From Campylobacteraceae bacterium (GTDB lineage Bacteria; Campylobacterota; Campylobacteria; Campylobacterales; Sulfurovaceae), in NCBI GenBank assembly GCA_027068975.1, contig JALXFN010000070.1, positions 1 through 57,152 of the forward strand: a DNA stretch of 57,152 bases. Reading direction: 5' to 3'. The position numbers and the translations under genes were made by a program. Of the stretch, positions 45,235-49,336 are shown one piece after another (position 1 is the stretch's first letter; each line of letters starts with the position of its first letter). The notes under the pieces are model-generated. The model made no database searches and was not told the origin of the DNA. It was given only the letters and a program-made list of their open reading frames with translations.

Positions 45235-45624
45235 TTAGTCTCTTCTTTTTCGTTTTAATTCTCTAAGATATAGTAAAAAAGAGTATGTGAGTTGAAAAAA
45301 CAAAATTCCAATTAAATCAGCAAGTACATCACCTACTGAAACTTCTCTATAGCCCGTGAAAGATTGCAGTATCTCTATAAGTATACCAAATGCAAGTAGA
45401 GAAACCATGTTTCTAATACGTTTAGCAATACTAGATGAAGCACGATTTAGTAAAAAAGAGAGCACAAAGAAAGCTGAAGCATGTAGAAATTTATCTGCTT
45501 TTTCAAAATCAAAAAAATGGTTTCCATCATCTGGAGTAAGTGCTTTATAGAGTACAAATATGGCAGTTATAAAAAAGAGTATTTTAAACTGATTCCTATT
45601 GAGTATATGTAGGTATTTAGTCAT
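45235..45624 (-). CDS. VanZ-like membrane protein
   Basis: A 129-residue protein with four hydrophobic helices (FKILFFITAIFVLYKAL, LHASAFFVLSFLLNRAS, MVSLLAFGILIEILQSF, VLADLIGILFFQLTYSFLL) and the VanZ-family signature around FDFEKADKFLHASAF and EILQSFTGYREVSVGDVLADLIG. The frame is open upstream to 45750 inside pepA, but the ATG at 45624, two bases after the pepA stop, is the sensible start. The molecular function of such proteins is not known; they are usually membrane or envelope proteins of cryptic role. Confidence 0.8.
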   Translation of the reverse strand: MTKYLHILNRNQFKILFFITAIFVLYKALTPDDGNHFFDFEKADKFLHASAFFVLSFLLNRASSSIAKRIRNMVSLLAFGILIEILQSFTGYREVSVGDVLADLIGILFFQLTYSFLLYLRELKRKRRD

Positions 45625-45626
45625 AT

Positions 45627-47081
45627 CTATTTTGCCAGTTTTTCTAAAAGCCTTAGCGTGGTACGAACTCCAGCTCCTGATGCACCATGAGGGTTTTCTC
45701 CCCAAGCATGTTCGACAAAGGCAGGACCTGCTATGTCGATGTGTGCCCATTTATCTTTATGTTCATCATCTATAAACTCTTCTAAAAATTGACCAGCTGT
45801 TATGGCTCCACCATAACGGGTGTTAGAGATATTACAAATGTCTGCAATGGCACTGTTTAGTGACTTTTTCAAGTAACGGTTAAAGTCTAATTTTGTCGCA
45901 AACTCACCAGCAGTTTTTGATGCAGCTATATAAGCATCTTTAGGGGCATCACTGTTTCCCATAACAGATGAAGTATAGTGACCTACACCTACTACAGAAG
46001 CACCTGTAAGGGTTGCAAAGTCAAAAAGGTAGTCAGCTTGAACCTCTTGTTGTGCGTAACATAAAGTATCTGCTAAGACCAAACGACCTTCTGCATCTGT
46101 ATTGCGAACTTCTATAGTTTTACCATTTTTTGCTACCAAAACATCATCTGGTTTGTAAGCGTCACCACCTATCATATTCTCAACTGCACCTACAAAACCG
46201 TGAACTTCGACAGGTAAGTTCATCTCAGCTACTGCTTTCATGATTCCTAAAACTGCAGAACCACCACTTTTGTCAGACTTCATGGTTACCATGTAGTCAC
46301 CTGGTTTGAGGCTTAGTCCACCTGAATCATAAGTTAACCCTTTACCAACCAGAGAGACAACAGCCTTTGGATTTTTTGGTTTATGCGTTAAGTGAATAAC
46401 ACGTGGTTTATGACGAGAAGCACGAGCAACAGCGAGAAGTGTCTCCATTTTTTCTTCTTTTAGCTCTTTGGGTTTTAAAATTTTACATTTTAGTCCATTG
46501 TTCTTTGCTAAACCTTTAGCTATATCAGCCATAATAGCAGGGTAACAGTCATCTGGAGTGGTGTTGACAATGTCACGTGTAAAGTTAGTAGCATCTGCTG
46601 TTATTTCACCATTGTTTAGTGCTATTACACACTTCTCTATGTCAAGTTCATACTCATTATAGTCTTCTAAAGAGATAATAACCTTTTCAATAGGTTGTTT
46701 TGCTTTTTCACTTTTGTATTTGTCAAAGCTATACGCTCCTAGTTTAAAGCCCTCTACTATGGCTCTTATAACAGCTGTACATTTAGGGTGATTCATATAT
46801 GAAGCTATTTTAAGTGATTTGTACTTGGTGGCTGATAAGCTTTTAATGGCTGTGGCAACTGCTGTTCGTACATTCAGACTTGAGATTTTATCAATCCCAA
46901 CATATAATCTATTTTTATCTATAAGTAGATAGCTATCATCTTGTCCAGCTGAATAACCAGCTTTTTTTAGAAGCTTTTTATCTTGAACAAAACGGTGTTT
47001 AAAGTTTTTATCTACTATTATTATAATTTCTACATCAGCTTCTATTTCAGTTATTGGGTTGTTGGTTACTTCAAAATTCAT
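45627..47081 (-). CDS. pepA: Leucyl aminopeptidase
   Basis: A 484-residue M17-family cytosol aminopeptidase that removes N-terminal residues with two metal ions. Catalytic motifs: VGKGLTYDSGGLSLKPGDYM, MKSDKSGGSAVLG, and NTDAEGRLVLADTL with the metal-binding NTDAEGR. The N-terminal regulatory/DNA-binding-like domain is present (residues 1-170). The length is normal. It is directly followed by the VanZ-like gene and preceded by an inverted pair of REP-like elements. Confidence 0.96.
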   Translation of the reverse strand: MNFEVTNNPITEIEADVEIIIIVDKNFKHRFVQDKKLLKKAGYSAGQDDSYLLIDKNRLYVGIDKISSLNVRTAVATAIKSLSATKYKSLKIASYMNHPKCTAVIRAIVEGFKLGAYSFDKYKSEKAKQPIEKVIISLEDYNEYELDIEKCVIALNNGEITADATNFTRDIVNTTPDDCYPAIMADIAKGLAKNNGLKCKILKPKELKEEKMETLLAVARASRHKPRVIHLTHKPKNPKAVVSLVGKGLTYDSGGLSLKPGDYMVTMKSDKSGGSAVLGIMKAVAEMNLPVEVHGFVGAVENMIGGDAYKPDDVLVAKNGKTIEVRNTDAEGRLVLADTLCYAQQEVQADYLFDFATLTGASVVGVGHYTSSVMGNSDAPKDAYIAASKTAGEFATKLDFNRYLKKSLNSAIADICNISNTRYGGAITAGQFLEEFIDDEHKDKWAHIDIAGPAFVEHAWGENPHGASGAGVRTTLRLLEKLAK

Positions 47082-47245: not shown

Positions 47246-48487
47246 TTATCTAAATTGCTCAGCTAAAATATCTTGTGCTTGTATCATATCTTTGTCACCA
47301 CGTCCAGAGAGGTTTACTAAAATGGTCTTACCCTTTATATCCTCTTTTTTCATTTTTTTCAAGTAGGCAATGGCATGAGAACTCTCAAAAGCAGGAATAA
47401 TACCTTCAGATTGAGATAGCCATACAAAGGCATCCATTGCCTCATCGTCAGTAATATGGTTGTAGGTTACGATGTTATTGTCTTTAAAGTAAGCATGTTC
47501 AGGTCCAATACCTGGGTAGTCTAAACCAGCAGAGATGGAGTGTGCCTCTTGAATCTGTCCATCTTCATCTTGGAGTAGGTAGCTAAGTTGTCCATGTAGT
47601 ACCCCTGGGCTTCCTTTTTCTAAAGAACAGCCATGTTTAGAGTCCAGTCCTAAACCACCAGCTTCTATACCGATACACTCAACTGAGTCATCTTCTAAAA
47701 AGTGGTTAAAGATTCCAAGTGCGTTTGACCCACCACCAATACAAGCGATAACTTTGTCAGGTAGGCAAGACTCTACAATATCTAACTGTTGTTTAGCCTC
47801 CCAACCAATAATAGATTGAATATCACGTATCATCATAGGGTAGGGGTGAGGTCCTGCTACAGTTCCTATAATATAGTAAGTATCACGAGCATTGGTTACC
47901 CAGTGTCTTATGGCATCGTTCATGGCATCTTTTAGACTTTGGCTTCCAGACTCTACAGCGTGAACTTTAGCACCAAGAAGTTTCATTCTAAAGACATTTA
48001 GCTCTTGACGTTTAACATCTTTAGCACCCATAAAGACTTCACACTCCAAACCAAAAAGAGCAGCAACTGTAGCAGTAGCTACACCATGTTGACCTGCTCC
48101 AGTTTCAGCAATAACTTTCTTTTTACCTAAACGTTTAGCCAGTACAGCTTGTGCAACACAATGGTTGATTTTATGAGCCCCTGTATGGTTAAGGTCTTCA
48201 CGTTTTAAGTAAACCTTAGCATCTAACTCTTTTGAGAGGTTTTGGGCAAAGTAGAGAGCAGAGGGGCGACCGACATAGTTTTTGTAGTAGTAGTCTACCT
48301 CAGCCCAAAAATCTTCGTTAAAGCGTACAGCTTCATAGTCAAGACGTAGTTGTTCAAGGGCAGGCATTAGAGTTTCTGGAACAAAGCGTCCACCATATCT
48401 ATGTTCATCATCCTGTGAACCAAAGTGACCATTGCTATCAGGGTCATGAGGGCTTGGTTTTGGAATATAAATAGTTTTTTTTGTCAT
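47246..48487 (-). CDS. trpB: Tryptophan synthase beta chain
   Basis: A 413-residue PLP enzyme that joins indole and serine to give tryptophan. Motifs: the N-terminal [14 protein letters not shown], the PLP lysine in [16 protein letters not shown], the [12 protein letters not shown] block, and the phosphate-binding GGGSNALG. It is of the TrpB1 type that works with TrpA. No trpA or other trp gene lies in the window; here trpB stands between a structured non-coding region and the pepA gene. The intervening REP pair suggests separate transcripts. Confidence 0.96.
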
Positions 48488-48672
48488 TCATTTTCTCGAT
48501 TTTTTGATAAGTATTGGATTATAGCGAAATAACATTTATTTTGTTTGTAATTATTAATTTGAAAAAATAAAAAGTATTATTATATAATGTAAGTATAATA
48601 ATTTTTTTTGTGATATTTTGTGTTTAATTTAACATTTATACTATTTTTATGTTTATTAAAGTTTAAATCTAT

Positions 48673-48678
48673 TATAAT
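48673..48678 (+). promoter_or_regulatory. -10 box placed at a structured-RNA start
   Basis: TATAAT ends six bases before 48685, so the expected transcription start falls on the first base or two of the TTCAACGGCATA stem arm. No good -35 hexamer is present, as is common in this phylum. Confidence 0.5.
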
Positions 48679-48683
48679 TATGT

Positions 48684-48815
48684 TTCAACGGCATATAGGT
48701 GACGGTCTAGCTCTCCCCTATTTCCTGAATTAGTATGGTTTGCTTGTAAGAGTGGATTGTCTATTAAGTCTAGATTTGTCATGTATATTTATTTTTCTAT
48801 AAGTATGCCGTTGAA
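48684..48815 (+). ncRNA. Candidate structured small RNA, unknown class
   Basis: A 132-base element in an otherwise gene-free 363-base gap. The ends TTCAACGGCATA (48684-48695) and TATGCCGTTGAA (48804-48815) pair perfectly. Inside, TGACGGTCTAG (48700-48710) pairs with CTAGATTTGTCA (48770-48781) with two G-T pairs and one bulge. Between the stems is an asymmetric loop of 4 and 22 bases, and the apical region is about 59 bases. A closing stem, internal bubble and inner stem recall 6S RNA, but it is shorter and no 6S, SRP or tmRNA signature is recognised. No T-run follows. A small inverted-repeat mobile element is the alternative reading. Confidence 0.5.
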
Positions 48816-48850
48816 CTCCCTAAGATTGCATAAGCGTTATTATTTTGAAT

Positions 48851-49336
48851 CTATTCAAAATATCCTTTTTCTTTGTTTTTTATAACACTTATGTGGTCTT
48901 TAATTACTCCATTCATTGAGATATAAACACCATTTTTATTTATAGCATTTATATAACCATAAGCAGAAGCAAAGTTAGCTGTGGCCTCTATGGGGTTAAT
49001 AGAGTAGGGAACCATAGCTCCTGTGAGGATTATCTCTTTTCTTAAGTTAGCGTCATCTAAGAATTTAGCTGTTTTATCTATGGTGTCTGTTCCATGAATT
49101 ATTATAATGGTCTGTTCAGAATGTTCCTTAATAGTTTGGACTAGCGTCTCTCTGTCGTTATCATCTATATTTAAACTGTCTTTGCCTATTATATTAACAA
49201 TTTTAAAAGTTGTTAACCAATGTTTGGCAATAGCCTTTAGTGCATTACCATTTGGTTCTATATCTAAATTTCCAGTTAGGGAATTATAGACTTTGTTAAA
49301 GGTTCCACCTGTATTTATAATTAATATCTTTTTCAT
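48851..49336 (-). CDS. Single-domain asparaginase-like protein
   Basis: A 161-residue protein equal to the N-terminal domain of type I/II asparaginases. The first catalytic Thr motif INTGGTFNKVY and the second IIHGTDTIDKTA with Thr-Asp-Thr are intact, as is ILTGAMVPYS. The C-terminal domain, which completes the active site and the tetramer in canonical enzymes of about 330 residues, is absent, and no frame downstream continues it. Such short forms occur in Campylobacterota and may be a distinct protein rather than a broken gene; activity is uncertain. Confidence 0.75.
   Translation of the reverse strand: MKKILIINTGGTFNKVYNSLTGNLDIEPNGNALKAIAKHWLTTFKIVNIIGKDSLNIDDNDRETLVQTIKEHSEQTIIIIHGTDTIDKTAKFLDDANLRKEIILTGAMVPYSINPIEATANFASAYGYINAINKNGVYISMNGVIKDHISVIKNKEKGYFE

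Follow-up and report, generated by a model that had tools for sequence, protein, structure and literature searches.

A predicted small RNA conserved in one genus of vent Sulfurovaceae shares a loop sequence with RNase P RNA

RepG of Helicobacter pylori works via a C/U-rich loop. GsrN of Caulobacter pairs with katG mRNA through a C-rich loop (PMC5869019), and the cyanobacterial RNAs Yfr1 and Yfr10 have a C-rich motif in common, each in its own structural setting (PMC6778093). Bacterial Y RNAs tether the protein Rsr to PNPase (PMC4726728), and the 6S RNAs of C. jejuni and H. pylori are located upstream of purD, that of C. jejuni being 185 nt long (PMC3847290). The small RNA gene analysed here lies in a 57,152-nucleotide stretch of DNA (the window) from a member of the Sulfurovaceae. 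Like GsrN and other sRNAs of this type, its RNA is short and stable, with an exposed C-rich loop as its most conserved part (PMC5869019), but sequence, phylum and gene context differ, Rfam shows no relation between the two, no class of G-rich targets was found and the motif is also present in RNase P RNA. It resembles the Yfr1/Yfr10 pair in that a C-rich motif is predicted to be single-stranded in two otherwise different RNAs (PMC6778093), although here the second carrier is the RNA of the tRNA-processing enzyme RNase P and not a second sRNA. The shared string, CCCCUAUUUC, is found in the P12 insertion of class A RNase P RNA (RF00010), but the small RNA lacks any other RNase P feature; RF00010 gives no match at this locus, and RNase P RNA is encoded elsewhere in the genome. 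We found no description of the small RNA or of the RNase P insertion in the literature. The gene represents a new RNA family, missing from Rfam, that has strong covariation and two size classes, in vent bacteria related to Sulfurovum for which hardly any RNA biology exists.

The gene occupies a gap of 363 bases, as noted earlier, between trpB (start 48487, minus strand) and an asparaginase-like gene (48851-49336, minus strand). The RNA of the window folds at -36.4 kcal/mol, compared with -24.7 +/- 3.5 for dinucleotide shuffles (z = -3.35), none of 200 shuffles being as stable, and the opposite strand folds much more weakly (-23.6). The original prediction of a separate structured RNA gene with its own promoter at the closing stem is supported by these values and above all by the ortholog comparisons given below, in which it passes the covariation test proposed with it. 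The perfect 12-bp pairing of the ends was confirmed (Table 1). The second stem inside it does comprise 11 bp, formed by TGACGGTCTAG and CTAGATTTGTCA, but is not perfect, since it includes two G.U pairs and one bulged base.

Table 1. Features of the small RNA gene and its flanks, in window coordinates.
Feature	Position	Strand	Basis or remarks
Upstream promoter element ATGTTTATTAAAGTT, consensus TTtAAGtT	48649-48663	+	about 10 bases 5' of the -10 box; 29 upstream regions aligned
-10 box TATAAT	48673-48678	+	TTATAAT in 29/29 aligned copies
Closing stem, 5' arm	48684-48695	+	fold, covariation (long and short forms)
Inner stem, 5' arm (TGACGGTCTAG)	48700-48710	+	fold; 6/9 pairs changed on both sides
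Near-invariant block CUCUCCCCUAUUUCCUGAAU, predicted single-stranded	48711-48730	+	ortholog alignment; recurs in RNase P RNA P12 insertion
Core CCCCUAUUUC	48715-48724	+	present in both size classes and in RNase P RNA
Short helix UAG	48731-48733	+	pairs with CUA 48761-48763; invariant, so covariation is no test of this helix
Apical hairpin	48736-48758	+	sequence variable; compensatory changes in 6/6 consensus pairs
Inner stem, 3' arm (CTAGATTTGTCA)	48770-48781	+	fold, covariation
Closing stem, 3' arm	48804-48815	+	fold, covariation
Terminator-like A/U hairpin (48841-48862) and U-rich tail	48841-48880	+	conserved in long-form orthologs; overlaps 3' end of convergent asparaginase-like gene

The upstream element and TTATAAT stand at fixed spacing ahead of the closing stem in every upstream region that was aligned, which upholds the earlier assignment of a TATAAT box that places the start on this stem. 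We infer from these sequences that the small RNA gene is transcribed from this strand, with a start likely at about 48685-48687. The earlier statement that no T-run follows fails when the adjoining 50 bases are taken in, for a 9-bp A/U hairpin is followed there by TCCTTTTTCTTTGTTTTTT. This hairpin is more stable than its shuffles, both in the window and in each of two long-form orthologs that were folded, and is a plausible terminator in the long forms, so that a primary transcript could end there at a length of about 180-190 nt; the short form of G020 (L219) has a stronger terminator candidate. A small coding sequence was considered and rejected: the sole ATG in reach (48680) falls 3' of the -10 box but ahead of the start, and by eye it is not conserved.

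Our genus sample comprised 34 genomes, all of them vent MAGs of the Sulfurovaceae. The small RNA is present in 29 of these, beside the same asparaginase-like gene, and falls into two size classes, a long form of about 130 nt, with 18 examples, and a short form of about 80 nt, with 11. A first DNA search of the 34 genomes gave 18 clear copies, that of the window included; each has the asparaginase-like gene and fabI as neighbours, and nearly every one has trpB too. Short forms with the same promoter were found in genomes that had no match in this search, those of G006 and G012 being recovered by a second model. They lie on the same side of the asparaginase-like gene as the long forms, but trpB is not their neighbour, which indicates that it is the asparaginase-like gene, not trpB, that accompanies the small RNA. 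Among the genomes in which no copy was found, the contig of G002 stops at the site, and the asparaginase-like gene itself was not found in G003, G010, G015 and G019. This neighbour encodes a 161-aa product consisting of an asparaginase N-domain; since the gene is present in 28 of the 34 genomes it is a conserved stand-alone domain, not a broken gene. The protein aligns to positions 1-161 of the 193 positions of PF00710, that is, to the N-terminal domain alone. Elsewhere in the window, the leucyl-aminopeptidase (45627-47081) and VanZ-like (45235-45750) reading frames, on the same strand as each other, overlap by 124 bases (45627-45750), probably because the mechanical ORF call set the VanZ-like start too far upstream.

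Both size classes show compensatory change. In the long forms (17 distinct sequences aligned), 13 of the 30 pairs are changed on both sides and 97.8% of cells are paired; none of 500 shuffles reached this covariation score, and no register slide came close. In an alignment of 11 short-form copies, the second module of G004 among them, 8 of 21 pairs are compensated, again with none of 500 shuffles scoring as high, and the sequence of the closing stem varies freely yet compensates. Judged from the alignments, these changes support the closing stem, the inner stem and the apical hairpin. Two arrangements of the short form are duplicated. G004 (L222:1340-1500) has two short-form modules in tandem, apparently in one transcript, in which the closing stem of the second module is unrelated to that of the first and still self-complementary, and G028 (L220:2000-2433, minus strand) has two complete short-form genes in tandem, about 350 bases apart, each with its own promoter. 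No Rfam family matched the RNA of the window or the stretch 48450-49000, in agreement with the earlier remark that it follows no recognised consensus. Beyond the genus, we obtained no convincing copy from 175 genomes of the family (R1) or 399 of the order (R2) under strict filters; this absence is soft, because the filters scored few candidates per genome, and as far as searched the small RNA is specific to one genus of Sulfurovaceae. Nor is it a mobile repeat or MITE, or a scattered inverted-repeat element, as had been raised earlier: it is single copy in G000, its synteny is fixed, and viral contigs and plasmids contain no copy, one phage record giving a short match to the upstream region only.

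The candidate RNA put forward in the original prediction stands, but its main feature, the string CCCCUAUUUC common to RNase P RNA, was beyond the view of a single stretch of DNA. In all forms the exposed C-rich loop, predicted to be unpaired, is the most conserved part of the RNA, reading CUCUCCCCUAUUUCCUGAAU in the long forms and AUCCCCCUAUUUCUAAAUC in the short forms, of which those of G006 and G007 differ slightly; CCCCUAUUUC is the near-invariant core common to all loops. The DNA search that gave the 18 long-form copies also revealed a second site in many genomes, with up to 24 identical bases, which Rfam identifies as RNase P RNA; the motif is located in an insertion in the P12 arm. P12 insertions with CCCUAUUUC are present in 18 genomes, found by a pattern search that demanded exact flanks, so that diverged insertions could escape it. 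The longest string common to the small RNA and the P12 segment of its own genome is 10-24 nt in all 18 genomes, compared with a mean of about 7 nt in shuffles, of which 0-6 in 500 were as long as the string observed, and with the 6-9 nt that the small RNA shares with RNase P RNA outside that segment. The hairpin of the insertion and its flanks cannot be aligned between lineages, but the core stays. About ten other genomes, among them five long-form carriers (G013, G025, G029, G031 and G032), have RNase P RNA without the insertion, and the RNase P side is therefore dispensable. In G005, G016, G017, G018, G020 and G027 the 10-mer is found exactly twice, once in each RNA, and genomes of this kind contain no third RNA with the core; other 12-mer matches are scattered, and none is common across genomes save one gene in two close relatives.

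The core is mostly unpaired by MFE in three contexts, namely the 5' side of an internal loop, a hairpin loop and the P12 bulge. Its predicted pairing is about 0.07 in the small RNA of the window, and ten of the 18 P12 arms are predicted to leave it single-stranded, nine of them with pairing of at most 0.09 and that of G020 with 0.31. The eight P12 arms with the longest matches give a mixed prediction, with core pairing of 0.22-0.60. A circularly permuted two-strand module, in which a strand B, AAAACUGU, is also shared, was rejected; strand B is conserved in some lineages only and is therefore not relied on. The RNase P RNA of G015 (L119) has a different, longer insertion in the P12 region that has no CCCCUAUUUC core. 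Two different RNase P RNA genes (L118 and L123) occur in the single MAG of G006, probably through contamination.

Sequence comparison establishes a conserved structure, promoter, synteny and fixed core, and the sharing of that core with RNase P RNA; that the core is unpaired is a prediction from folding. One string retained by two unrelated RNAs and met in three structural contexts is the pattern expected from a sequence-specific single-strand binder, and the reading that we prefer, with a probability of roughly 0.4, is that the structured RNA binds such a partner, shared with RNase P, as decoy or co-ligand. The RNA would start at the closing stem and fold into a long end-to-end helix presenting a single-stranded loop of fixed sequence, (C)CCCCUAUUUC. 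This loop would be recognised by an RNA-binding factor, most probably a protein, that is specific for a single-stranded sequence, and the same factor would recognise the matching bulge in the P12 arm. As a decoy the small RNA would compete with RNase P for the factor; as a co-ligand it might bring other RNAs and RNase P to it. The narrower proposal that a single dedicated RNA-binding protein is contested or bridged by the small RNA and RNase P RNA, and that RNase P activity, location or substrates are controlled in this way, we consider rather doubtful, and we know of no bacterial example of RNase P regulation by a small RNA via a common protein. The motif is a direct handle, as one short bait could fish out the putative RNA-binding factor and could also show whether the small RNA regulates RNase P.

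The nearest competitor, a possibility that we take seriously, is that the RNA is a trans-acting antisense sRNA that uses its C-rich loop to pair with G-rich sites of many mRNAs, the string in RNase P RNA being a second pairing partner or a target competitor. A near-invariant, C-rich loop with few or no G residues on a stable stem is the classic antisense layout, and sequences complementary to it are common just upstream of start codons: in G031, AAATAGG is found 13 times in start regions and once in gene bodies, and AGGAAATA 14 times and once. This excess, however, is what Shine-Dalgarno sequences give, and the complements of the C-run, AATAGGG and ATAGGGG, show little or no enrichment at starts (2 and 1 versus 1 and 1 in the gene bodies of G031, and 4 and 2 versus 3 and 2 in G020; the start-region counts cover 598 and 506 genes). 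Seven genomes have no perfect complement of the 10-nt core save the opposite strands of the RNA genes themselves, and genus-wide there are 79 non-self core complements, fewer than the 137 of the reversed control, which makes a target that base-pairs with the full core unlikely; no conserved full-length antisense target was found in the genomes of the genus. Antisense pairing would also leave the retention of the motif by RNase P RNA unexplained. Pairing via 7-8 bases, for which there are good precedents (GsrN, PMC5869019; Yfr1/Yfr10, PMC6778093), would escape the complement test, as might an rRNA partner (candidate site GAAAUAGGGG), the complement counts being from MAGs, which often lack rRNA. 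It is because short pairing is still possible, and a full-core target unlikely, that the shared factor is ranked slightly above antisense pairing.

It is improbable that the likeness records a one-time copy of the string from the small RNA gene into RNase P, by insertion or gene conversion, which has since been inherited without there being any common partner, and that the small RNA does something unrelated. The confinement of perfect 20-24 nt matches to long-form genomes is as such an event would give, but RNase P RNA in short-form genomes also holds the core, and there CCCUAUUUC is kept amid an insertion that is otherwise unalignable, which points to selection and not mere descent. As a special case of a protein-binding RNA, a Y-RNA-like scaffold for Ro60/Rsr is very unlikely: a size of 80-130 nt, a long stem that joins the two ends and a pyrimidine-rich loop are shared with Y RNA and YrlA, but the bulged Ro60 site of vertebrate Y RNA is not seen in the closing stem, nor is any tRNA-like domain, and there is no match to the Rfam Y or Yrl models.

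Least likely of all is an RNA of the 6S type, which would bind RNA polymerase by imitating an open promoter. The likeness to 6S remarked on earlier lies in the closing stem, internal loop and apical stem of the long form and in the promoter at the closing stem, and it proves superficial. The short form, about 80 nt long, has only a 19-nt hairpin loop in place of the central bubble, the gene adjoins the asparaginase-like gene instead of lying upstream of purD as in Campylobacterota 6S, RF00013 gives no match at E up to 5 in the window or in 48450-49000, and a 6S-like sequence is located elsewhere, near purD. No genome of the genus exceeds the RF00013 cut-off. The 6S-like sequence, in G017 (L045:1501-1694) about 500 bp from purD, scores weakly at 25.6 bits against a cut-off of 46.4, and is for that reason supporting, not conclusive; it is probably the 6S RNA of the genus.
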